The position numbers and the translations under genes are program-made. From Limnothrix sp. RL_2_0 (GTDB taxonomy: Bacteria > Cyanobacteriota > Cyanobacteriia > Cyanobacteriales > MRBY01), in assembly GCA_012033055.1 (NCBI GenBank), contig JAAUPR010000018.1:1-52451 (forward strand): a stretch of 52,451 bases of DNA. Reading direction: 5' to 3'. This document shows positions 3,926 through 46,676 of this stretch, one piece after another (within the stretch, counting starts at the first letter, position 1; every line of letters starts with the position of its first letter). The notes below the pieces were generated by a model. The model searched no databases and was not told the DNA's origin. It worked only from the letters and a program-made list of their open reading frames with translations.

Positions 3926-5641
3926 TTAATTTGTAAAATCAATCCGCCAAATTCCCGCTGCAATAGTAGCAAGTTGTTTTTGGCGGGCTTCTATTTTTGC
4001 TTCATCCCAAGTATCGTAATGTTGGGCGATCGCCTGAGTCATTTTAAAACCACTTGTTTCATAAATGGGACGTTTAATCAGATAAGGTTCATTTCCCAGA
4101 TCTTGATTCAACTTGCGCTCTAAAGGAGTGATATTGCCCAAACGATAGATTAGACGATCTTGCTTTTCCTCCACAATGTAATCCCAATCTTTAGATGGAT
4201 TTTCTGGCAAGATATGTTCTAAATTGTAGGTTGCACTCTCGAAATCAAAGTCACAATTATATTTCTGTTTTTCAATCTCAAAAAGAACATAGCGTACAAT
4301 TCTTTTATTTCGATTATTGCCCGTACGAAATTGTTTTTCAGTAAATGCAGCTTTAAAAGTTTGATCTTCAGGATAAATTTTACGCAGATCTACGAAGATA
4401 TTTCGATGGTTTTGATAACTGCCTTCAGAAACTTTCCATGCAATGTCATTATAGAGTTTTTCTTGTTCATTACTTGGCAAACTACAGATGATATTATATC
4501 GAAAAGAAATAATAGAGATCGCCTTCAAGATACGTTTAAAAGCTGGACGATCAGAGTCGAAGAAATTATCGTAACAAGCCATCAACATTGCCAAAGGTTG
4601 ACGGACATTAAACATTTGTAGTTGTTTTAATGCCTCTTTTTCTTCCATCTCCCAAGTCACATCTTGAGGATCTCTAAGGGCTGCATAAATTTCTGCAAAG
4701 CGATCTAAATCTCTGGCAAGACTAAAAGCCTGCTCGCGAGTTGTAATGTTACGACGAATTGTTTTAAAAAGGTCTGATTTTCGGACTAACTTATGACGAC
4801 TATTCCAAAATACACGAAGGAACTCAGGAAAACTTTCACTACCAAGTAAACTGACAATTCTTTCCCAACGATCTTCAAGGGCTTTTAGTTCTGTTTCATG
4901 GGTTTCCCCTGTACTGATGAGGGAAAATAAATAATTTTTGAGGAGATCCGTTGCTGATAATCTCACGCCACGGGCATTTAATGTTTCAAATACTTTAAAA
5001 GCGTTTAATTCATCTGTAACAGTAATCACCGTAAAAAAAAGTTTGTCTACTAGAGAATCAATCATCCCTGCAAATTGTTCGCCACTATTTATTTTTGTGC
5101 CACATTGGAGTTTAAAACGGCTTTTAAACCACTCAAATGCTTTTCTCAACAAATGTTCTGAGGCATTAAGTCCCCTTCTCGGCATTAGTGATAGAGGGAC
5201 AAGATAAGTCTGGTAAAAGCGATTATTATGGCGATTTAGTTCAAGTTTAGAGCGAGGAATAAGGCTTACTGGGTCAATATAACCAATGTAGCTGTTTTGT
5301 AATTGATCTTTACGGCGGCGATTTTTTTCGGCATCAAGATTTGCTTCAATTAAATCTTCTAAATAGGCTAAACCTGCAAGGATCATCACACTAATTGTCG
5401 TCATGCGTTGTTGACCGTCGATAATGTCAAAACGTTTATTATCGGAAGATTGCAGAACGAGATATCCCATATAGTGGGCGGGTTCTCCATCTTCTTCAAA
5501 TAAGCCTAAAATATCCTGCCAAACATCTTCCCACTCGTCTTCTGTCCATGAATAATCTCGCTGAAAAGGAGGCACACGATAGCTTAATCCATTACCTAGA
5601 AGTTGGCGAAAGGTGGAATTTGTAGTGTTGAAATTCATCAT
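3926..5641 (-). CDS. DUF262/DUF1524 protein (GmrSD-like)
   Basis: A 571-residue protein with the two-domain plan of GmrSD-type nucleases. The N-terminal DUF262 part has YRVPPFQRDYSW (21-32) and the DGQQR nucleotide-binding motif (75-79, in FDIIDGQQRMTT). The C-terminal DUF1524 part has the HNH-like EHILP motif (Glu475, His476). In the type IV restriction enzyme GmrSD these parts bind NTP and cleave glucosylated DNA; most family members are uncharacterised and many are assumed to be phage defence genes. The start is only 9 bp after the ubiD stop, so the two are probably co-transcribed, which is odd for a defence gene beside a quinone-pathway gene. Two tandem ATGs begin the ORF. It is more AT-rich than ubiD, with only one HIP1 site, near its 3' end, which suggests acquisition. 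Confidence 0.82.
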   Translation of the reverse strand: MMNFNTTNSTFRQLLGNGLSYRVPPFQRDYSWTEDEWEDVWQDILGLFEEDGEPAHYMGYLVLQSSDNKRFDIIDGQQRMTTISVMILAGLAYLEDLIEANLDAEKNRRRKDQLQNSYIGYIDPVSLIPRSKLELNRHNNRFYQTYLVPLSLMPRRGLNASEHLLRKAFEWFKSRFKLQCGTKINSGEQFAGMIDSLVDKLFFTVITVTDELNAFKVFETLNARGVRLSATDLLKNYLFSLISTGETHETELKALEDRWERIVSLLGSESFPEFLRVFWNSRHKLVRKSDLFKTIRRNITTREQAFSLARDLDRFAEIYAALRDPQDVTWEMEEKEALKQLQMFNVRQPLAMLMACYDNFFDSDRPAFKRILKAISIISFRYNIICSLPSNEQEKLYNDIAWKVSEGSYQNHRNIFVDLRKIYPEDQTFKAAFTEKQFRTGNNRNKRIVRYVLFEIEKQKYNCDFDFESATYNLEHILPENPSKDWDYIVEEKQDRLIYRLGNITPLERKLNQDLGNEPYLIKRPIYETSGFKMTQAIAQHYDTWDEAKIEARQKQLATIAAGIWRIDFTN

Positions 5642-35983: not shown

Positions 35984-36088
35984 TTGAAATTTGCAATGGA
36001 TTAGCTAGATATCCGTTGACGAAATTTCGAATTTCAGATTATGGTGCGTGCATCACAAGTCCAAACTTAGCCCGAATCACTAAATCGC

Positions 36089-37048
36089 ATGGTCTGCTCT
36101 CCCTCCCGTTCTCAGACAACCAGACTGCCCCTAACGTTCCCAGAGAGTGTTAATCCAACTCTGGTAAAGTCCCATGTTTCCTTAGCCACTCATACCTCTT
36201 TCCGCGTCGGAGGAAGGGCAGAGTTTTACGCCGCCCCCACTACTTGGGAAGAAACCCAAGCTTGTTTTGAATGGTATGCAGACCATCAGCAAGAGGATTT
36301 ACCCCTAACTATCCTTGGAGCAGGCTCCAACCTATTGATTAGCGACGCAGGTCTTCCCGGACTGACTCTCAATACCCGCAAACTTTGCTATTACCGAGCA
36401 GAAGAAGAAGCTGGGATTCTCGTGGCGAGTGCAGGGGAACCCCTTGCTCGTCTGGCTTGGAATGCGGCTAAACGGGGTTGGAGTGGTTTGGAATGGGCTG
36501 TCGGCATCCCCGGCTCCGTGGGCGGTAGTGTCGTAATGAATGCGGGTGCACACAAAGGATGCATCGCTGATAATTTAGTCTGGGTCAAAGTACTAGAACC
36601 GAATGGCAGTATCACGTTGCTAAAGCCAGCCGAGTTGGAATACCGTTATCGCACCTCTAATCTTCAAGGTCAAAAACGCCTTGTCTTAGAAGCAGCTTTT
36701 CAATTGGAACCGGGCTTTGATAAGGCAGAGGTTAGAGCAGAAACGACCCGTAATCTACGGATGCGTAAATCGAGTCAGCCTTACCATTTACCAAGTTGTG
36801 GCAGTGTCTTTAGGAATCCCTACCCCCAAGCGGCTGGCCGTCTAATTGAGGAGTTGGGTTTAAAAGGCTATCAAATCGGTGGTGCTCAGGTGGCTGAACG
36901 CCATGCAAACTTTATCTTGAATTGTGGTGGTGCGAAGGCCATGGACATTTTTAGGTTGATTCACCATGTGCAGGCGCAAGTGGAAGAGAATTGGCAAATT
37001 TTGCTCAAGCCTGAGGTGAAAATCATTGGTGATTTTTCGGGAGCCTAG
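36089..37048 (+). CDS. murB: UDP-N-acetylenolpyruvoylglucosamine reductase
   Basis: MurB reduces UDP-GlcNAc-enolpyruvate to UDP-MurNAc with FAD and NADPH. 319 residues. FAD-binding blocks: SFRVGGRAEFY, LTILGAGSNLLISD, GLEWAVGIPGSVGGSVVMNAG; catalytic regions: PSCGSVFRNP (the Ser proton donor) and RHANFILNCGGA. It follows murC and the steps they catalyse are consecutive. ATG 36089 lacks a clear ribosome site, so the exact start is uncertain by a few codons. Confidence 0.94.
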   Translation: MVCSPSRSQTTRLPLTFPESVNPTLVKSHVSLATHTSFRVGGRAEFYAAPTTWEETQACFEWYADHQQEDLPLTILGAGSNLLISDAGLPGLTLNTRKLCYYRAEEEAGILVASAGEPLARLAWNAAKRGWSGLEWAVGIPGSVGGSVVMNAGAHKGCIADNLVWVKVLEPNGSITLLKPAELEYRYRTSNLQGQKRLVLEAAFQLEPGFDKAEVRAETTRNLRMRKSSQPYHLPSCGSVFRNPYPQAAGRLIEELGLKGYQIGGAQVAERHANFILNCGGAKAMDIFRLIHHVQAQVEENWQILLKPEVKIIGDFSGA

Positions 37049-37180
37049 GGATAAGTTTGGGGTGGAATTGTCCACAACAGCTCTGGGATACTAAGATAGT
37101 CTTCGGGCTGTTTGAATCCGTTAGACTGGGTTCTCATCGCAATATTTAACGTAAAAATTAGCTTTATTTCTGTAATTACT

Positions 37181-37525
37181 ATGGCTCAAGGAAAAGGATT
37201 TGGTCTCGGTCTCGGCAAGATGAAAGAGCTTGCTAATGCTTTTCAGCAAGCCCAAAAGGTGCAAGAAGGTGCAAAGCTGCTGCAAGAGGAATTGGAGCAG
37301 ATGAGTATTGAAGGGACTAATGCTGATGGTTCGGTGAAAGTCGTGCTGAGTGGTAACCAGGAGCCTCGCAGTGTGGAAATTTCTGATGCGGCGATCGCCA
37401 AAGGCTCTGCTGACTTATCCGCTGCGGTGACTGAAGCCCTAACAGATGCCTACAACAAATCAACTGAAACGATGCGTAGCCGCATGGAAGAATTGACCAG
37501 TGGTTTAAATCTTCCCGGTCTCTAA
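37181..37525 (+). CDS. YbaB/EbfC family nucleoid-associated protein
   Basis: A 114-residue YbaB/EbfC protein, a small dimeric DNA-binding protein. I choose ATG 37181 (MAQGKGFGLGLGKMKELANA) because it matches the family; the in-frame upstream start adds 23 hydrophobic residues with no match. Core: EELEQMSIEGTNADGSVKVVLSGNQEPRSVEIS. Third gene in the murC-murB direction, and followed by a terminator. Confidence 0.92.
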   Translation: MAQGKGFGLGLGKMKELANAFQQAQKVQEGAKLLQEELEQMSIEGTNADGSVKVVLSGNQEPRSVEISDAAIAKGSADLSAAVTEALTDAYNKSTETMRSRMEELTSGLNLPGL

Positions 37526-37568
37526 AATTCGCCTAAAAGCTTACCGAGTTTAATGTAATAAAAAAGAG

Positions 37569-37596
37569 CCTTCCTAATGACTAGGGAGGTTTTTTT
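37569..37596 (+). terminator. Rho-independent terminator after ybaB
   Basis: CCTTCCTA (37569-37576), loop ATGAC, TAGGGAGG (37582-37589), then seven T. The stem is 8 bp with one G-U pair. It lies 43 bp after the ybaB stop. Confidence 0.85.
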
Positions 37597-37621
37597 GTCG
37601 CGCAAAAATCAATCAACCCAA

Positions 37622-37648
37622 TAAAAAGAGCGCTCAACCGAACGCCCT
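37622..37648 (-). terminator. Rho-independent terminator after aspS
   Basis: On the minus strand AGGGCGTTC, loop GGTT, GAGCGCTCT (9 bp with two G-U pairs), followed by a T-run (37623-37627). It lies 32 bp after the aspS stop, back to back with the ybaB terminator. Confidence 0.75.
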
Positions 37649-37680
37649 TACGGAAAATTTAATTGATCACGACATGACAA

Positions 37681-39474
37681 TTACGCATCTTTTTCGGGAG
37701 CTGTGGACATAACGAAAAGCTCTTTAAGCTGTTTATCGCTCACTCCAGCAGGGGCAGAAGTTAGGACACAACTCGCTTGCTGGGTCTTGGGGAAGGCAAT
37801 TACATCACGAATAGAATCTTCCTTCGCCATCAGCATCACGAGGCGGTCTAAACCATAGGCGATACCACCATGGGGCGGTGTGCCATATTCAAAAGCTTCT
37901 AGGAGAAATCCAAATTTTTCCTTGGCTTCTTCGTCAGATAGGCCGATGGTTGCAAAGACTTTTTCCTGTACATCCCGCTGATAAATTCGCAAACTACCGC
38001 CACCTACTTCGATGCCGTTTAAAACAATGTCGTAGGCAAGGGCGCGGGCTGTCGAGAGATCATCAATGTCTTCGGGGTTTGGGGCGGTGAATGGGTGGTG
38101 TAAGGCTTCGAGGCGTTTTTCGTCGCTGTTGTACTCGAACATGGGGAACTCGGTCACCCAAACAAAATTAAGCTGGTCTTCATCAATTAAACCCATTTCT
38201 GCACCGACAAGCTGACGAACGCGATCAAGGGATTTATTAACGATATCTGTTTCGCCTGCCCCAAAGAGTAAAAGGGTTCCGGGTTCTGCGCCTGTGCGAG
38301 TTAAAAGTTCGGTTTTTTGTTCGTCGCTGAGGTTATCTTTGATTGCGCCGATGGTATCAATTTCGCCATCTTCACGCACGCGGATAAACGCTAATCCTTT
38401 TGCACCCATTTCACAAGCGGCGTTAAACAGGTCGCCTTTGGGCTTGATGCGGACGTTAGAAATGGCATCGTTACCGTTGGGGATCGGTAAAACTTTGACT
38501 TGACCACCGCTTTTTACTGCGCCAGAGAAGACTTTAAATCCCATATCTTTGACGATATCGGAGACGTTTACTAGCTCTAAACCGAACCGGGTATCGGGGC
38601 GATCGCAGCCATATTTCTCCATGGACTCGGCATAGGTAATCCGGGGAAAAGGACGGGGTAAGTCAATGCCTTTTGCTGCTTTAAAAATGGCACAGATTAA
38701 CCGCTCGTTTAAATCAAGAATCTCGTCAAGGGACATGAAGCTCATCTCCATATCCAACTGGGTAAATTCTGGTTGGCGATCGGCTCGCAAATCTTCATCG
38801 CGGAAACAGCGGGCAATCTGATAGTAGCGATCGCAGCCTGCCACCATGAGCAACTGTTTAAAGAGTTGGGGGGATTGGGGCAAAGCGTACCAGTCACCGG
38901 CATTCACTCGGGAAGGCACAAGATAATCTCGCGCACCTTCGGGAGTAGATTTTGTCAGGATGGGAGTTTCCACTTCCATGAAGTTCTCTTCATCTTCAAG
39001 GAAGCGACGCATGGCTTTTGTAACGGTGTGGCGTAGTTGCAGGTTTTTCGCCATGGCTTCCCGACGCAAATCGAGGTAGCGATATTTCAGCCGCAAATCT
39101 TCTTTAACGAGATCGCCATCGGCACTCGCAGACACCAAAATGGGGAGCTGTTTATTAACGCTGTTGAGAATTTCGATGGAGTCGGCGTAAATCTCGACTT
39201 CCCCCGTGGGCAGCTTCGGATTAATCGCGCCATCTTTACGGGGGCTGACTTTGCCGACAATTTTGACGACGTACTCACTGCGGCTAGCGTCGGCATTATT
39301 ATAGGAATCGGGGGTACGATCGGGATCGCTGACAATCTGGACAACGCCACGGCGATCGCGTAAATCGATAAAGATCACGCCACCATGATCACGGCGGCGA
39401 TCGACCCAACCACAAAGGGTTACAGTCTGGTCAATATGCTCGGAACGCAGTTCCCCACAATAATGAGTACGCAT
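37681..39474 (-). CDS. aspS: Aspartyl-tRNA synthetase
   Basis: A 597-residue class II synthetase of the bacterial type. It has an N-terminal OB-fold anticodon domain ([24 protein letters not shown]), motif 2 ([25 protein letters not shown]), the bacterial GAD insertion (about 300-420) and motif 3 near the end ([13 protein letters not shown]). Full length with no breaks. Ends with its own terminator. Confidence 0.96.
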
Positions 39475-39577
39475 AGGTTTAAATATATATAGTTAAGGCA
39501 TAGAACTTTAAAGCGACTCTAAGCCTACCAAAGATTAAGGGTCTTGCCTATAATCAGGATGTGACAATATTTGAGTC

Positions 39578-40933
39578 ATGGACATAAACAATATTTCTCT
39601 GTCTATTCCATCTGAATATTCTCAAAAACCTAATACTGATTTCGTCATTCATGAAGGTCAATTGATCATTCAAGCAGACAATGAAAAAGCAATACTCTCA
39701 GAAGGTAAAATAGTTTTTTCTTGGTTCCCTACTCCGAAATTGAGATTTTCTGCAAGATTAAAGGTTCAATATAGTGTGCCTTTTAATCAGGAAATATCAG
39801 TGAATTTTCAAAATAAGCGGACAAAAGCAAAGATTTTCAAAATAAAATCAGATGTCGAATTTAGTATAGTTCAGGGAAGTATTTTGAATTATGAGATAGA
39901 AAAAAATATTAAAATTAGTAGAGTTTATTGCCACATAACCAATTTCCCTGATTTTGATGGCCAAGAGCATATAAAAGATTCAGTAAGAGCATATTTTTTT
40001 GATCGTTTGATTCTAAACAATGGTGATTGGACAATCAAAATCGATCCGTTGAGACATAATAAAAATAAAATAACAAAGCTTCTTAAAGAATCATTTGGAT
40101 TTGCGATAACTCATGTTGCAACACTTGAAAAGGTTGATGAGGGTCAATTTCTATTAGATGAAATTAGTCAGCTTCTTGAAGGATTACATTACTTTTTGTC
40201 TTTTCTTGCTGGTAGATGGGTATCTCCCATACTATTGAATGCCCAAGAAGCTTCTGGAAAAACCATTCCATTACCTATTGTCCACTATAAAACCACATCA
40301 TTTAAGGTTGTTAAATCTTGGTTCCCATTTAGCGCAACAGAGCACATATCATCCATGTTTAAGGAATTCATGAGATTCTACTTGGATGAAGATTGGTTAG
40401 AACCACTTCAGCTTCTTATAAGTTTCTATATAGAAAGCAATATCAGTGGTGTTGAACAAGGCATCATGATGTCCCAGTCAACATTTGAGTTACTGGCTTG
40501 GCTAACTTTAACACAGCATAATTTTATTATTAGTGAGCAGACTTTAGATAAACTTCCAGCCCATGATCTTTTGAGGCTGCTTTTTTCTTGGCACAATATT
40601 CCGACTGATATGCCCCCGATAGACAATATGACTATGCTTCAGAGTCTACAAAAGCTGTCAGCCGCAAATAACTACTCAGATAGTCCTGAATGTATTACCC
40701 AGATTAGAAATAGAATTACTCATCCCAAGAGAAAAAACAAGTCAGAAAAAAAGAATAAAACATCTCTTTTAAAATACTCATTTGCTGAAAGAATAGAAAC
40801 ATGGGATTTATGCTTATGGTATTTGGAAATGTGTCTACTGAAGCTTTTTGATTACCAAGGTATTTATAGAAATCGCTTGAGATTTACTGGATCCAGTGAT
40901 TTTGATTTTCTTCCTTGGCTATCTAATACATAA
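39578..40933 (+). CDS. Putative HEPN-domain protein (ApeA/Abi-like)
   Basis: A 451-residue protein I do not recognise with certainty. The first half is beta-rich (LIIQADNEKAIL, PKLRFSARLKVQYSV); the second half is helical and ends in a domain with R-x4-H in IRNRITHP (Arg377, His382), the catalytic signature of HEPN ribonucleases. This layout resembles ApeA-type and other large abortive-infection HEPN proteins, but that is inference. The gene is more AT-rich than its neighbours and has no HIP1 site, both consistent with horizontal gain. The PD-(D/E)XK-like gene starts 25 bp later on the same strand, so they probably share a transcript. Confidence 0.55.
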   Translation: MDINNISLSIPSEYSQKPNTDFVIHEGQLIIQADNEKAILSEGKIVFSWFPTPKLRFSARLKVQYSVPFNQEISVNFQNKRTKAKIFKIKSDVEFSIVQGSILNYEIEKNIKISRVYCHITNFPDFDGQEHIKDSVRAYFFDRLILNNGDWTIKIDPLRHNKNKITKLLKESFGFAITHVATLEKVDEGQFLLDEISQLLEGLHYFLSFLAGRWVSPILLNAQEASGKTIPLPIVHYKTTSFKVVKSWFPFSATEHISSMFKEFMRFYLDEDWLEPLQLLISFYIESNISGVEQGIMMSQSTFELLAWLTLTQHNFIISEQTLDKLPAHDLLRLLFSWHNIPTDMPPIDNMTMLQSLQKLSAANNYSDSPECITQIRNRITHPKRKNKSEKKNKTSLLKYSFAERIETWDLCLWYLEMCLLKLFDYQGIYRNRLRFTGSSDFDFLPWLSNT

Positions 40934-40958
40934 ATCATAATCAGAGGTTTGAGTGTTT

Positions 40959-41579
40959 ATGTCTTTTAGTCAATACAAAAATATTGCTGAAGTTCAAAGA
41001 GAGTTTGAAGTTCGATATTTAGAAAATATTTTTATCGTTTCTACTGAATTAGAGCCTTCAAAAAGTTTTCTGGGAGACTTTGAATTTAGTAAACAAAATA
41101 TTGATGTTTTCTCTTCCGAAGCTGCCCGTAGTGAAGTGGTAATTTCGCCATTGCTCAGAGAAGTTTATAAACAGCATTACCAAGATTATGCATTTTGGAT
41201 TCAGAAAAGTATTCGTTATGATGATGAGCTTTCTGGAACACCTGATTATTTGTTCTCACGGCGATCGCCCCTCGGCAAAACTGTTTTAGAACCGCCTTTG
41301 GTTGTTGTTGTAGAAGCAAAGAAAAATGACTTTGAGCAGGGTTGGGGTCAATGTTTAGCGGAACTCGTTGCAGCACAAAAAATCAATGGCGATCGCCACC
41401 GAACAATTTACGGGATTGTGACCGATGGTAATCTGTGGCAGTTCGGAAAACTCTATGACGATGTTTTTACTCAACATCCCGAAAATTTTACGATTGATCG
41501 CATTGAGCGAGTGTATGGTGCTTTGGAAGCAATTATGCAACTCGTCGAACAGGAAGACCAAAAGAAAATGGAGAAATAA
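40959..41579 (+). CDS. PD-(D/E)XK nuclease-like protein
   Basis: A 206-residue protein from ATG 40959 (MSFSQYKNIAEV; a GTG two codons upstream is possible). The PD-(D/E)XK pattern is visible: Asp in SGTPDYL, then VVVVEAKK (Glu and Lys) and a following QGWGQCLAEL. This is a widespread cyanobacterial family normally found as solitary genes of unknown function. It contains HIP1 sites, unlike the gene before it, so the two may have different origins even though they are 25 bp apart. Confidence 0.7.
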   Translation: MSFSQYKNIAEVQREFEVRYLENIFIVSTELEPSKSFLGDFEFSKQNIDVFSSEAARSEVVISPLLREVYKQHYQDYAFWIQKSIRYDDELSGTPDYLFSRRSPLGKTVLEPPLVVVVEAKKNDFEQGWGQCLAELVAAQKINGDRHRTIYGIVTDGNLWQFGKLYDDVFTQHPENFTIDRIERVYGALEAIMQLVEQEDQKKMEK

Positions 41580-41623
41580 AGGCGATCGCCCCCAATAAAA
41601 CTCATCCCAACAGACTCTATTTT

Positions 41624-42139
41624 TTATTCACTTTCAACCAAATCTGGCTGCACACCGCGATCAATCACCTCAATATCCCATTGCCCCGTGCGATCGCCTT
41701 CAAATGCAATCCAACGACCATCACCGCTAATGGTAGGATTTCGTACCTGACCGATATAGGTTTTCGTTAAATTTCTACTTTGAAAAGTTTGGCGATCATA
41801 GAGAAACACATCGGTTTTGCCATCCTGCTCGGAAGTGTAGACCAAGTAACGACCATTGCGACTAATGTCGGGCTGATCGTAGAAAACCCTGGGCTGATTT
41901 AATCCGGGTAATGGTAATAGTTTGCGCTGGGATAAATCGTACAAAAAGATACGGCGTTGCTGACGGCGATCGCTACTAAAAACAAGGAAACGACCATCAT
42001 CGGACAAGCGAGGATTTTTTTCGCTATGGATGCTATTGAGATTATTACCGAGAGGATCTGGGGGCGGGGTGACAAAGTTCTGATTTTGACAGGCGCTAAT
42101 CAGGACAAAAAAGCCAATAATTCCCCAACGTCGCAACAT
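41624..42139 (-). CDS. TolB-like beta-propeller lipoprotein
   Basis: A 171-residue lipoprotein. The signal peptide MLRRWGIIGFFVLISAC ends with a lipobox (LISAC). Then come PD40/TolB-type repeats: RLSDDGRFLVFSSDR, DISRNGRYLVYTSEQDG and TISGDGRWIAFEGDR, each a WD-like blade with a DG or NG turn. Only three blades are present, so it would need to oligomerise to close a propeller, or is a short variant. Anchored in a periplasm-facing membrane. It follows the LuxR-type regulator gene by 3 bp. Confidence 0.82.
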   Translation of the reverse strand: MLRRWGIIGFFVLISACQNQNFVTPPPDPLGNNLNSIHSEKNPRLSDDGRFLVFSSDRRQQRRIFLYDLSQRKLLPLPGLNQPRVFYDQPDISRNGRYLVYTSEQDGKTDVFLYDRQTFQSRNLTKTYIGQVRNPTISGDGRWIAFEGDRTGQWDIEVIDRGVQPDLVESE

Positions 42140-42142
42140 TAG

Positions 42143-42439
42143 CTATTCAGAAATTGGCAGAGTACAGCAATTGACTTTATCAAGGCAAACCTTACCCCAT
42201 TGCAATGCCCAGCGCACCAGAGACACCCGATTGTCCGTTGCTGTTTTGGTCAAGATATTACTAATGTGATTGTCCACCGTGCGCTTACTGATCTCTAGCC
42301 GTTCCGCAATTTCATGATTGGTGAGTCCCGCTGCCACAAGATCGACAATTTGAATTTCTCGCTCTGATAAAGATGCTTCAGTTGCCGACTTTTCCGTTGC
42401 CATGCCTTTTTTCGCCTGTGTACTTGTGCTTAGTCTCAT
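42143..42439 (-). CDS. pedR: Small LuxR-type regulator, PedR-like
   Basis: A stand-alone LuxR/NarL DNA-binding protein of about 98 residues with no receiver domain. The helix-turn-helix is LSEREIQIVDLVAAGLTNHEIAERLEISKRTVDNHISNIL. The C-terminus CLDKVNCC has three cysteines. This is the layout of Synechocystis PedR (Ssl0564), whose activity is switched off by thioredoxin-dependent disulfide change when photosynthetic electron flow rises. The start is uncertain: ATG 42439 is chosen; TTG 42457 and ATG 42403 are in frame. It lies 3 bp upstream of the TolB-like lipoprotein gene. Confidence 0.68.
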   Translation of the reverse strand: MRLSTSTQAKKGMATEKSATEASLSEREIQIVDLVAAGLTNHEIAERLEISKRTVDNHISNILTKTATDNRVSLVRWALQWGKVCLDKVNCCTLPISE

Positions 42440-42505
42440 TGTAGGAGAGGTTTCCAATTTGGCTTGATTTTACACAATTCACTTAAGGTCTGGAGGAATT
42501 TGTAC

Positions 42506-43540
42506 CTAAAGGCTGAGACCGGGGAAATCGGCGATCGCCTGAGTCGATTGGACAATATGCATCCCTGCCTTAGCAAACCGTTCAAAGGCCTCATCAGCTT
42601 GGGGTGTGAAGTCCACAACACCGTGGATTACTACCGGAGAAGTGCAATCTTCTAGCAAATAAACTTTCTTCGCGAGGTTCGGATCTTGGGTCAAGATCTC
42701 CGCAAGTAAATCATCAATCGTCCACGCAACGCAGTGACTTTTCGCCTGTCCCGCAATAATCACCGCATCAAAATTGAGTAATTTCTGCAAAAAGCGCGTA
42801 TTTTTCTGGGCAATAGGACGACCCTGATTATCCTTAAGTACCTCTGGGCGCAACACAGAATAATTTTCCGTGAGGGGATTGCCGCCTTTAATTTCAAAAT
42901 TGGTTTGGCTATGGCGGGTCATATTGTGGAAAAACATCGCTTCCTCCACCGCCGACACAAGGGCGTGACCAATGCCGCCCACCATGGAATGATAGGGCCA
43001 AATGGTTAGAGGATATTTCCCGTCCTGACTCAATTTCTCGGTGTAGTGCAACGCAAATTGCTGAAGCCCGACATAGTTACCCTTGCTAATGCTATAGGCG
43101 ATCGCCGGATTAACTTTCCAAGTACCATCCTTCACTTCCTCAAAAGTAATCGTACTAGCCGGTTGGGGGTGTGCTCCCGCGTCGTTAACCCAGAATACGG
43201 GGTGAAAAATCTGCATCGCAGTGTGGGTATCCATCGTCGGCGCTAACTCAGTGAGTACATCCAGATTGCGATAAATAAATTCGCATAGACGCACATTATC
43301 TTCCACCGCTCCGGTACCGGATTGACCGCCCACAAATAGCTCAAAATTTGGAATACAAAAGGTATTTTGCACGTCGATCGCCATCAAACAAATCCGTTTT
43401 TTATCAGTGGCAGCAGGTTTGATATTGTGCTTTTTCGCCCAAGCCTCCGCCTCAGTCGCCCGCTCTAGATAAGGCACGCGCCAAACATCACCAACAGTCT
43501 GGGCATTAAAAAAAGTAGGAAGGGGTAAAGGGCTAGCCAT
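42506..43540 (-). CDS. Isochorismatase-like cysteine hydrolase (nicotinamidase-related)
   Basis: A 344-residue protein of the cysteine hydrolase superfamily from ATG 43540 (MASPLPLP; an in-frame ATG 43555 adds 5 residues). Catalytic Asp in LMAIDVQNTFC and Cys in AGQAKSHCVAW, as in nicotinamidases. At over 340 residues it is longer than a simple PncA (about 200) and matches the larger cyanobacterial nicotinamidase-related proteins. A set of dyads lies 34-68 bp upstream. Substrate is not certain; nicotinamide is the best guess. Confidence 0.78.
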   Translation of the reverse strand: MASPLPLPTFFNAQTVGDVWRVPYLERATEAEAWAKKHNIKPAATDKKRICLMAIDVQNTFCIPNFELFVGGQSGTGAVEDNVRLCEFIYRNLDVLTELAPTMDTHTAMQIFHPVFWVNDAGAHPQPASTITFEEVKDGTWKVNPAIAYSISKGNYVGLQQFALHYTEKLSQDGKYPLTIWPYHSMVGGIGHALVSAVEEAMFFHNMTRHSQTNFEIKGGNPLTENYSVLRPEVLKDNQGRPIAQKNTRFLQKLLNFDAVIIAGQAKSHCVAWTIDDLLAEILTQDPNLAKKVYLLEDCTSPVVIHGVVDFTPQADEAFERFAKAGMHIVQSTQAIADFPGLSL

Positions 43541-43555
43541 GATTTCAAGCTCCAA

Positions 43556-43870
43556 AGTTTTAATGTTTTAATTACACTATCTATTGTAGTGTTTATTCTA
43601 CATAGTGTCAAGTATGCGATAAGCTATCGACTTTCATATTGTGCCGAAAGGGAACCTAAAACAGGGTGCTCTTTTTGACCAAAGCATTTGTGCGAGGGTG
43701 AGTTTGCTAGGAAAATTTGTGGGGCGATCGCGCTTCATCTGTTGCGAATAGAGAAGTGTTTTTAATGGTGGGCATCAACTAAGTCATCATAAAAAGAAGA
43801 ATTAGGTTCAGCAAAAAAAGCAGCATCTCTACCGAAATATCAAAGCGAAAAATTACACGAGGTTTGCCCA
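43556..43870. other. Divergent intergenic region (315 bp)
   Basis: Contains the dyad cluster at 43574-43608 and a HIP1-like site near 43727. It is the promoter region for the cysteine hydrolase (minus) and the lipoprotein (plus). Confidence 0.45.
43574..43608. promoter_or_regulatory. Overlapping dyads upstream of the cysteine hydrolase gene (possible operator)
   Basis: ACACTA (43574-43579) with TAGTGT (43587-43592) is a perfect dyad with 7-base spacer. TGTAG (43585-43589) with CTACA (43598-43602) is a second dyad, and a further TAGTGT follows at 43603-43608. ACACTA...TAGTGT therefore pairs with either of two right halves, as expected for an operator with two registers. It lies 34 bp upstream of ATG 43540. 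A NAD-metabolism regulator is a natural guess, but I cannot match it to a known motif. Confidence 0.5.
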
Positions 43871-45066
43871 GTGAAACATCATCAAGTCATATTCCCGGTA
43901 GTCGCTCTGATGTACGGCGGTATTTTGTCCTGTTCCCCTGCCATCTCTGATTCATCGGATACCACCATAAACTCAGTCAGCTCACCCGTAATCATTGATC
44001 CAGAACTTGTCCCCCCAACAGATGCCATGGTCTCAACAGAGGATCAGGAGGATATTGCCCGGATTGTAGAAGGGGAGGAGAAGGTGAAAATTTTTAATGA
44101 AGTGATAGCCGTACAAGCAGACATCGGTCTTTGTGAAGGAGAGGATAATTTGAGCGAAATCTCGAAGGCTCCGAAGTGTATGCCCGTGACACGCAACATT
44201 CAACCACGGAATATTTAGTCAAGGTGCTTTGCTTCAATGCCGCATACCAAGGCAATTATGAGTTTGTGTACGCCAACACAGTTGAGGTCGTCTTCTACAC
44301 CATCGAAGAAAGGCCATTGTCATTCAGAAGGGCAAATATGTACTTGGCTGGCTATCCAACTTTTGATCCGGTGACGAGTACCATTTCTAATAGCTACAAA
44401 TTCATCGGCGCGGGAACATGTTTTGAGTCTACCCAGCATTATTGGGATGGTTATTTTCTCCAGCTTGTTTCTTCTAGTTTGGAAGATGGCATTGAGGGGG
44501 GGTGTGCGGAATTGGGAGTGCGATCGCCTGCGGAGGATCAGCTAATTACAGCGACGGGTGTAGGCATGGCAAAACTGGGGATGACCCTTGGTGAACTGAA
44601 GCAATTGTTGCCAGAAGATAGCAGCCTCTCTCCGACCGAATTAGGGGTTGATATGCCTGCCGCGATAGAAGTGAGTTTTTATGGTGCAGCGCAATTTGAT
44701 GTTGCTTTTAGCTATGAAGATGAACCGATTACAGATCAGTCCAAAATTGAGATGATCGTGGTGAGCAATCCGATGTATCGCACAGCCGAGGGAGTTGGCC
44801 CCGGAACTTTGGTGAAAGAGGCGATCGCCCAATATGGTGCAGCGACTTTAAGTTACAACATGGAAAACGAAAGTCGAGAATCGATCACTTTTGCCAAGAG
44901 CTTATTTCCTGAAACGACCGGTAGCAGTGTTTGGCTACGCTCAAATCAATGGACAGTGACTGATTTTGCAGGCATTTACCCTAATAGCATTGACTCATAC
45001 CAAGAAACCCAGAAATACCACGACCACGCGGCGATCGCCTCCATTTGGATTATGGGCAATCCTTAA
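43871..45066 (+). CDS. Lipoprotein of unknown function (single-base frameshift)
   Basis: GTG 43871 begins a signal peptide (VIFPVVALMYGGILSC) with a lipobox ending at Cys. The frame breaks at AAA 44157-44159: adding one A gives LSENLEGSEVYARDTQHSTTEY and a 398-residue protein. The mature part has an acidic linker, then a globular region with KVLCFNAAYQGNYEFVY, IGAGTCFES and GGCAELGV (possible disulfides), a GVGMAKLGMTLGELKQLLP segment resembling the start of a periplasmic ligand-binding repeat, and an ending IASIWIMG. I do not recognise the family. A near-identical copy of its last 26 bases recurs at 46812-46837, beyond the Fic gene. Confidence 0.72.
45031..45056 (+). repeat. Direct repeat flanking the Fic gene, left copy
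   Basis: This 26-base stretch at the 3' end of the lipoprotein gene starts with HIP1 (GCGATCGCCTCC) and ends ATTTGGATTATGGG. It matches 46812-46837 at 25 of 26 positions (C to G at the twelfth base). The Fic gene lies wholly between the two copies. Confidence 0.75.
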
Positions 45067-45314: not shown

Positions 45315-46676
45315 ATGAAGATTACAAGGCCCCCCTCAAAAACAGAACAACAAAAATCATTACAAGAGCTTTCTCAATCACCAGCCAAATTGATGAAGTA
45401 TCTAGATCTCAATTCTCCGGTTGACTCTAAGGGAAGATACTTGTCTTTCGATGAGTTACAGTACAGAGTCGAAAAATCTGTGGATGTGACATTAGTATGG
45501 CCGATTGTTAAACAAGCTCGACAAAAGCAACTTAATCCAGTTGTTACCCTTGGAATCCCTCCCAAAAAGTGTAAGTTTTTTCTGACTTCCACTATCCAAA
45601 AGGCCATTTCCGAAGTTGATCGTCATACGACTGATGCAGCATTAGAGTGGATGTGCAACAAAATAAATGAAAGAAAATATTTTGATTATCTTATTGAAAA
45701 CTTGATTGAAGACGAATCAATCAGCAGTAGTCAACTAGAAGGTGCTGCAACAACAACAAAAGTCGCCAAAAATCTTTTGAAGATGACAAGAAAGCCGCGG
45801 ACACCCGATGAGAAAATGATTGTCGGCAATTTCAATATGATGAAACTTGCTTGGACATCGCGTAATGAAAATTTGTCTTTAGATTTAATCAAAGAACTTC
45901 ATATAGCCGGGGTTCAAGGTATTCATGATAACAAGTACTATCCCGGAATGATTCGTAATACAGATGATATTGAAATAGTTGATGAAATGGGGGAAACGGT
46001 TTATATTCCCCCTCCATCAGAAGGACTTACCAAAAGGCTAAAAGACTTAGTTAAGTGGTCAAATAGTCAGCACGATGACATAGAAAGCAGAAACTTTTTA
46101 CATCCTTTAGTCAAGGCAATTGCCTTACACTTCGCCATTGGTTATGAACATCCTTTCTATGATGGAAATGGTAGAGTGGCAAGATCTTTATTTTATTGGT
46201 ACTTGTTTAAAAATGAGTTTGCTGCTTTTCGGTACATTGCTATCAGTTCCTATTTAAAAAAAGCTCCGGCTAAGTATGCAAAAAGCTACTTGTATACGGA
46301 AACGGATGACATGGACTTAACTTATTTTTTAGATTATCAGTGTAGCGTCATTATTCGGGCAGTCAATACATTTAGAGATACTTATAAAAATCGTCTAAAA
46401 GATATCGAAAAATTTGACCAGTGGCTCTTTACATCTGGGCTGTATAAGCAACTTAATGAAAAAGAACGTATTGTTTTTCATGCAGCTAAAAATGAATATG
46501 TCACTTATTTGACTGTAAACGAATTAAAAGAGAGCCTGAATTGCTCTTATAATACAGCAGCTAAGATCCTAAATAAATTGGTTGACTTGAAATTATTTAA
46601 AAAAGAGAAGAAGGGACGTGAGTGGACTTTTTCTATGCTTGACAAAAAAGTGATCTTGAAGAACTGGAATATGTAA
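45315..46676 (+). CDS. Fic family protein (probable AMP-transferase), class II
   Basis: A 453-residue Fic protein. The catalytic motif HPFYDGNGRVAR (279-290) is complete, including His279, Asp283 and the arginine. An inhibitory helix motif SSQLEG (Ser138-Gly143, Glu142) lies N-terminal to the Fic domain, which defines class II. The C-terminal 60 residues look like a winged helix (TVNELKESLNCSYNTAAKILNKL). Fic enzymes transfer AMP or other nucleotidyl groups to target proteins; many stand-alone ones regulate or act in toxin-antitoxin or defence roles. No separate antitoxin (FicA) gene is next to it, as expected for class II. AT-rich with no HIP1 site, and flanked by direct repeats: likely acquired. 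Confidence 0.88.
   Translation: MKITRPPSKTEQQKSLQELSQSPAKLMKYLDLNSPVDSKGRYLSFDELQYRVEKSVDVTLVWPIVKQARQKQLNPVVTLGIPPKKCKFFLTSTIQKAISEVDRHTTDAALEWMCNKINERKYFDYLIENLIEDESISSSQLEGAATTTKVAKNLLKMTRKPRTPDEKMIVGNFNMMKLAWTSRNENLSLDLIKELHIAGVQGIHDNKYYPGMIRNTDDIEIVDEMGETVYIPPPSEGLTKRLKDLVKWSNSQHDDIESRNFLHPLVKAIALHFAIGYEHPFYDGNGRVARSLFYWYLFKNEFAAFRYIAISSYLKKAPAKYAKSYLYTETDDMDLTYFLDYQCSVIIRAVNTFRDTYKNRLKDIEKFDQWLFTSGLYKQLNEKERIVFHAAKNEYVTYLTVNELKESLNCSYNTAAKILNKLVDLKLFKKEKKGREWTFSMLDKKVILKNWNM

Follow-up and report, generated by a model that had tools for sequence, protein, structure and literature searches.

A probable stand-alone YopA-family HEPN effector gene at a variable site upstream of aspS in Limnothrix sp. 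RL_2_0

The window, i.e., the whole stretch of 52,451 nucleotides analysed from Limnothrix sp. RL_2_0, contains on its forward strand a YopA-family gene for a protein of 451 residues (39578..40933, +), which is the main object of this analysis and is supported by the list of open reading frames, family searches and an alignment. It is hereafter called the HEPN gene after the predicted fold of its product. On the same strand, 25 bp from its stop codon to the next ATG, it is followed by a gene for a PD-(D/E)XK protein of 206 residues (40959..41579, +), a neighbour and not a conserved partner. On the other side lies aspS (37681..39474, −), whose upstream side forms a variable site; beyond the pair, away from aspS, the genes are unrelated. 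The PD-(D/E)XK reading frame has an alternative GTG start (40953-41579). The ATG at 40959 appears the more likely start, since the congeneric homologue begins with the identical MSFSQYK. A first-pass annotation, made from the letters alone, had described a 451-residue frame with RNRITH followed 25 bp on by a protein with PDYL...VVVVEAKK; the frames, the motifs (the second reading GTPDYLF...VVVVEAKK) and the gap are confirmed. Scanning of the + strand revealed no terminator-like site between the two genes, and a scan with one consensus type found no promoter-like site on this strand between 39400 and 41700. The two genes may share one transcript. RNA families above threshold were absent from 36000-44000.

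Base composition was ranked over the 43 non-overlapping open reading frames of the window with at least 120 residues each. The HEPN gene ranks lowest in GC content (33.1%, GC3 27%) and the PD-(D/E)XK gene fourth from the bottom (38.3%); both are thus AT-rich. The window contains 96 copies of HIP1 (GCGATCGC) versus 0.6 expected, a load that, together with its relatives, marks it as cyanobacterial; none of the copies is in the HEPN gene and two are in the nuclease gene. The absence of HIP1 from the HEPN gene alone is weak evidence (Poisson P ~0.08), and the earlier description of this gene as AT-rich and HIP1-free stands with that reservation. An 8-base direct repeat (ATAATCAG) flanking the HEPN gene was considered as an insertion footprint and rejected. 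A repeat of equal length was reached in 15 of 500 mononucleotide shuffles (96 of 2000 when judged by alignment score) and in 29 of 903 pairs of upstream regions of window reading frames; it is therefore no evidence of insertion.

Two further genes of the window match PADLOC profiles. A GmrSD-type protein of 571 residues (3926-5641, −) matches Pfam GmrSD_N (E 6.7e-37) and GmrSD_C (E 9.7e-30) as well as PADLOC HEC-06 (E 1e-239); its gene, third lowest in GC content of the 43 frames (37.2%), is a candidate for a separate defence gene. A Fic protein of 453 residues (45315-46676, +; Pfam Fic 2.4e-15, PADLOC SoFic 2.9e-43) is encoded 4.4 kb from the HEPN gene with the second lowest GC content (35.8%). 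The four frames lowest in GC content among the 43 are those of the HEPN, Fic, GmrSD and PD-(D/E)XK proteins.

The predicted model of the whole 451-aa protein (pLDDT 81.2, pTM 0.85, nine sequences) is beta-rich over residues 22-231 and helical from residue 257. The N-terminal beta-rich domain (approximately residues 22-231; 39641..40270, +) is a possible sensor. The predicted HEPN domain (approximately residues 257-423; 40346..40846, +) is supported by the whole and domain models and by structure comparison with VIA; modelled alone, the C-terminal domain reaches a pLDDT of 86.1 and a pTM of 0.86. The predicted active site, R377-N378-R-I-T-H382 (40706..40723, +), lies at the end of helix 369-381 and in the loop ahead of helix 402-423. 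The same placement is described for HEPN domains in sections of a HEPN survey, which also define the motif as Rx4-6H with a polar residue (N, D or H) behind the R (PMC3710099); R377-N378...H382 has this form. Residues R377, N378, H382, E304, F209 and G212 are invariant in all 36 aligned sequences. Judged from this alignment, the R-x4-H site is more than a chance occurrence, since none of its R, N and H varies in any of the 36 sequences, whose pairwise identities to the 451-aa protein go down to 22%. The model and the alignment place the invariant acidic residue E304 (40487..40489, +) ahead of the motif, in the long helix spanning 292-314. According to the same sections of the survey, the upstream acidic residue frequently has the Ex3[KR] form (PMC3710099); in the 451-aa protein E304 is followed by LLAW, so this form is not seen.

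Comparison of the C-terminal domain model with solved structures by VIA, which re-ranks only 468 chains preselected by Foldseek, returned HEPN proteins in PDB rows 1-19 (Z 7.4-5.1), the first row not recognised as HEPN having a Z of 4.9. These rows include AbiA (Z 7.4, rmsd 4.1, 127 aligned), AbiV (Z 7.1, rmsd 3.7, 119 aligned), Csm6 (Z 6.7, rmsd 3.9, 118 aligned) and several HEPN-MNT toxins. Ten of the 19 rows are labelled HEPN or AbiV in the table itself, and 8oz7, 1wty, 1jog, 7bxo, 1ufb and 2q00 are presumably HEPN proteins as well. Two Csm6 entries and 1wwp are placed as HEPN through parts of two papers (PMC3710099, PMC13405049). VIA itself notes that Z values of 5-7 for helical models possibly indicate only a common arrangement. 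Foldseek alone gave weak results: the C-terminal model had its best match in AbiV at an E of only 1.0, and unrelated helical proteins also appeared in the list; the whole model matched nothing in the PDB and viral libraries at E 0.001. As the Z values alone are middling, the assignment relies jointly on the uniform VIA list, the motif position and the conservation, and the 451-aa protein is very probably a HEPN ribonuclease. The HEPN fold with an R-x4-H site that the first-pass annotation had proposed is thus supported by the domain model, VIA rows 1-19 and the 36 of 36 invariance, and the structure check it had suggested gives a predicted C-terminal domain matching HEPN folds in VIA, Foldseek alone being weak. 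With the whole model, the N-terminal barrel dominates the VIA list (MotI, Z 9.5, rmsd 2.6, 81 aligned), and this barrel, residues 19-107, resembles PilZ and flavin-reductase-like barrels. Sensing of cyclic di-GMP is not proposed, since none of the c-di-GMP motifs of PilZ was seen by eye to be conserved.

The 451-aa protein has no Pfam family at cut-off (best GRDP_C, E 0.23), its best PHROG match has an E of only 0.1, and NCBIfam matches neither this protein nor any of 16 family members. A profile search with its family found no match among PDB sequences; the single-sequence PDB match, a designed coiled coil at E 0.85, was discarded as meaningless. A PADLOC Cas13a match (E 0.013) covers the motif region only. 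YopA of SPBc2 (NP_046623.1) shows 27.7% identity to the 451-aa protein at E 1e-25, and some E. coli members bear the RefSeq name 'YopA family protein'. By sequence similarity, the 451-aa protein is a member of a patchy, mobile family together with SPbeta YopA and the E. coli 'YopA family proteins'. The family was seen in cyanobacteria, proteobacteria, a Bacillus phage and two metagenome-assembled genomes (MAGs) of other phyla, one from Desulfomonile and one from Actinomycetes. Seven records of relatives are plasmids, from Methylophaga, Planktothrix, Nostoc, Oscillatoria, Crinalium and E. coli. The alignment of 36 rows, the 451-aa protein included, leaves out the fragments L030, L032 and L033 and the split L082, as well as weak profile matches with no long open frame or fewer than ~60 bits (G414, G506, G513, G600, G338 and the second places of G167 and G386).

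Single-sequence searching found relatives in 12 of 386 genomes of the phylum, the own genome included and one (G251) doubtful. Profile searching found them in 33 of 388 genomes and in 28 of 149 genera of the order, a few of these matches being weak. Within the genus, two of six genomes have a family member; that of the second (G386) is 31% identical and located elsewhere in the genome, and the other four of the five further genomes gave no match to the 451-aa protein. The nearest relative, with 40% identity, belongs to Pseudanabaena sp. lw0831, outside the order. The gene had been called acquired, and this holds for the HEPN gene: its composition, its absence from four of five congeners and the distance of its nearest relative argue for horizontal acquisition. 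Among viral contigs, the 451-aa protein and the family alignment as queries gave nothing, and SPBc2 YopA as query gave one phage contig; two viral matches (L084, L085) were short stretches in a long frame resembling a tape-measure gene and were dropped. One cyanobacterial genome, G308, carries two diverged, convergent YopA-family genes ~2.4 kb apart (L028, 8656-13837), with a 475-aa frame without recognised family between them. The literature search found no paper tying yopA to HEPN or SPbeta or naming 'YopA family protein', and no experimental demonstration of defence or RNase activity in a family member. In PMC6435635, yopA occurs together with Bacillus subtilis and prophage.

In the second protein, E119-A-K121 of the PD-(D/E)XK core is invariant in 13 of 13 rows, and D96 is present in 11 of 13, the other two having E. 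Its earlier recognition as a PD-(D/E)XK protein is borne out by this invariance and by a PADLOC match at E 7.1e-49. Of 386 genomes of the phylum, 91 contain a relative, and from these matches the protein is assigned to a common cyanobacterial PD-(D/E)XK family. The own genome has two paralogues (L035 and L036, on contigs C55 and C169) in loci read by eye as CRISPR-Cas, one of them apparently of type I-D.

The left boundary of the variable site is at 39550..39555, where the nucleotide sequence ceases to resemble that of the other five genomes of the genus. The genes upstream of aspS differ in all six genomes examined. In G386 (L098, 7266-9269), an AAA ATPase and a 239-aa protein form the PADLOC candidate PDC-M31A/PDC-M31B (E 1.4e-72 and 2.3e-13), the second also touching DUF4276 below the cut-off. 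In G387, G058 and G083, peroxiredoxin or surface-polysaccharide-type genes were read by eye. Nuclease- or defence-like cargo is therefore seen in three of the six genomes (the window, G211 and G386). Gene order differs on the other side of aspS too, so the variation may reflect general rearrangement and not a special hotspot.

The genome G211, from another species of the genus, bears directly on the question of whether the two genes form a module. There, aspS is followed by an HNH gene on the opposite strand (85 residues; Pfam HNH_5), which occupies the place of the HEPN gene, and then by a PD-(D/E)XK gene 89% identical to that of the window. Nucleotide similarity between the two genomes restarts 2 bases ahead of the nuclease ATG, and no remnant of the HEPN gene was found in G211 (best E 1.7). 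A relative of the nuclease was found in none of 37 other HEPN-family records (three queries, E 0.01), which include two near-identical SPbeta-type phages and fragments, and a HEPN-family relative at none of 29 nuclease loci (L037-L065, among the best-scoring of the 91 genomes; 1.5 kb flanks, E 0.001). The swap in G211 and these two counts speak against an obligate pair, which was rejected, and indicate that the HEPN and PD-(D/E)XK genes are no conserved module. The defence pair that the first-pass annotation had put forward is not supported, while its own caution that the linkage might be chance agrees with the co-occurrence check, which found no case in the other genomes examined. A system suggested by nothing more than gene order can dissolve once close relatives are compared.

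Three members of the YopA family have nuclease-like proteins of other families nearby. In L078 this is a NucS_C protein (Pfam 4.6e-07); in L068 and L147, a Uma2-like and a XisH-like protein, respectively, were recognised by eye only. Proteins of these three kinds are common in cyanobacteria. A type IIG methylase accompanies the YopA-family gene in L019, L020 and L029. In the first two a PLD-SNF2 helicase comes next; in L029, GmrSD adjoins and a related helicase is ~6 kb away. The E. coli YopA-family genes lie in a type I restriction-modification (R-M) island. A PD-T4-6-like kinase overlaps or adjoins the YopA-family gene in L026 and L021 and is ~5 kb off in L081; the PADLOC match to PD-T4-6 has an E of 7.7e-210 (L076, the same gene as in L026). 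The kinases of L021 (4836-7401) and L026 (1162-3919), one on a plasmid and one on a contig of two cyanobacteria, are 76% identical; YopA-family gene and kinase are possibly a travelling cassette. In L156, the YopA-family gene has an HsdS-like protein beside it and also, as read by eye, a methylase of the D12 type, and in L080 a ResIII helicase lies on the other strand 88 bp downstream.

In total, a defence gene of a known kind adjoins the YopA-family gene or is one small gene away in at least seven of the 37 records, a lower bound because only some neighbours were profile-searched and the rest were read by eye. Most other relatives read have no recognised defence gene adjoining; they look solitary or have an integrase or transposase next to them. 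Two records were dropped from the neighbour counts, L034 (E 1e-5 in a 1006-aa synthetase-like frame) and L024 (a near copy of L023). As a chance baseline, 167 N6_Mtase matches in 29 genomes (~190 Mb) lead to an expectation of ~0.26 HEPN-family genes within 5 kb versus at least two seen (G109, G167); the enrichment of methylases near YopA-family genes over random placement is modest. In E. coli AF43 (L073, 3724-19314), tandem tyrosine recombinases by ssb carry an island with the YopA-family gene, an HTH gene, HsdM, HsdS, two DUF262 proteins and HsdR. E. coli Z1323CEC0011 has a YopA-family gene on both chromosome and plasmid.

Taken together, the HEPN gene probably encodes a stand-alone, horizontally acquired YopA-family effector with a beta sensor and a HEPN RNase, acting through abortive infection from a variable site. 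Family membership, HEPN fold and motif, distant ApeA kinship, patchy distribution and the lack of co-inheritance with the nuclease are supported by computation. For the 451-aa protein itself we infer RNase activity, a dimer, sensing by the beta domain and phage defence. The N-terminal beta domain would sense a signal of phage infection; the activated HEPN domain, probably dimeric, would then cut RNA through R377, N378 and H382, and this cutting would stop the growth of the infected cell. On balance, we lean towards phage defence as such. This offers a testable function for YopA of SPbeta, a well-known laboratory prophage, and for its family. A more general and rather doubtful reading is that short products of DNA breakdown bind to the beta domain of the YopA family, prompting the HEPN domain to cleave RNA of the host, which would amount to a switch from DNA damage to RNA cleavage. 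ApeA is reportedly activated by deoxydinucleotides, according to the title of a preprint. If this extended to the YopA family, DNA-cutting neighbours could supply the trigger, and, since any such neighbour would do, the partner would be interchangeable. Such a switch would explain the type IIG and type I restriction operons and helicase-nucleases near the relatives and the PD-(D/E)XK gene here; if interchangeable DNA-cutting partners do feed one RNA-cutting effector, restriction and abortive infection would be generally linked.

Other functions deserve consideration. The common strand, the short gap free of terminator-like sites and the AT-richness of both genes could be taken to mean a two-gene defence system, with the PD-(D/E)XK protein as a nuclease against phage DNA, an antitoxin or a sensor, and the HEPN protein as the effector that cuts RNA; the DNA-cutting systems adjoining other HEPN-family members, the nuclease-like proteins near three of them and the two paralogues inside CRISPR-Cas-like loci of the own genome point the same way. 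Such a system is nevertheless quite unlikely given the nuclease of G211 without a HEPN gene and the counts of 0/37 and 0/29, to which the unequal number of HIP1 sites in the two genes (two versus none) adds weakly. A toxin of a toxin-antitoxin or addiction cassette, restrained by a regulator and lacking a specific phage sensor, is unlikely too: no small HTH gene was seen flanking the HEPN gene of the window, partner genes vary among relatives, and the large beta domain suggests a built-in sensor, although YopB, a small HTH gene, lies downstream of YopA in SPBc2, an HTH-like protein (Pfam HTH_73) is encoded downstream in E. coli, and an XRE-like 76-aa protein was read by eye upstream in L081. 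It is very improbable that the HEPN gene is a decayed or selfish islet gene with no present function in its host. Truncated or split relatives (L030, L032, L033, L082) and the empty promoter scan would fit decay, but the window copy is of full length and keeps all family-invariant residues, and the scan covered a single consensus type.

The second protein resembles PADLOC PD_DExK (PDLC01472), which is listed as CRISPR-associated, whereas no cas gene was seen by eye beside the window copy. The HEPN domains of AbiV and AbiA are the best solved-fold rows for the C-terminal domain in VIA, but the 451-aa protein has no sequence match among PDB chains. AbiV is a small HEPN protein without a beta domain of this kind. 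YopA of SPbeta is homologous over 95% of the query, belongs to the same length class with 438 residues and has FRNKIVHP (R-N-x3-H) as its motif; unlike the 451-aa protein, it is phage-borne, has an HTH gene next to it and is annotated as a hypothetical protein. The E. coli protein WP_001565355.1 has the same catalytic residues (~26% identity over 63% of the query, E 3e-15) and differs in its setting: in the regions seen, its gene is part of a type I R-M island that also has tandem tyrosine recombinases, and on chromosomes it lies by ssb. A near-identity search found it in 19 of 5426 E. coli genomes, nine with at least 80% of the gene.

The anti-phage protein ApeA (HEPN_Apea, PF18739, with ApeA-NTD1) shares with the 451-aa protein the combination of a beta-rich N-terminal part and a C-terminal HEPN domain. 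The N-terminal part of the 451-aa protein has ~250 residues versus the ~300 given for ApeA-NTD1 in sections of the HEPN survey, which also report a tight association between HEPN domains and many R-M systems and, for epsilonproteobacteria, R-M operons in which ApeA is embedded (PMC3710099). The Pfam model of HEPN_Apea does not match the 451-aa protein up to E 10, and no protein of the own genome exceeds its cut-off; six of 16 relatives match it at E up to 1, the best at 0.0003. In hhalign, the YopA-family profile scored 32.5-35.4 (E 0.0019-0.00023) with six HEPN_Apea proteins, all over the Pfam cut-off. None of 40 controls with shuffled columns exceeded 16.6, and an unrelated alignment gave 11.5-18.4. 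Shuffling of columns makes such scores look more significant than they are, and the probability reported by hhalign itself reaches only 14-45%. Each alignment with a HEPN_Apea protein falls in one of two collinear stretches, either FLSF before the HEPN domain or R-N-x3-H. From these profile comparisons, the YopA family appears to be a distant relative of ApeA.
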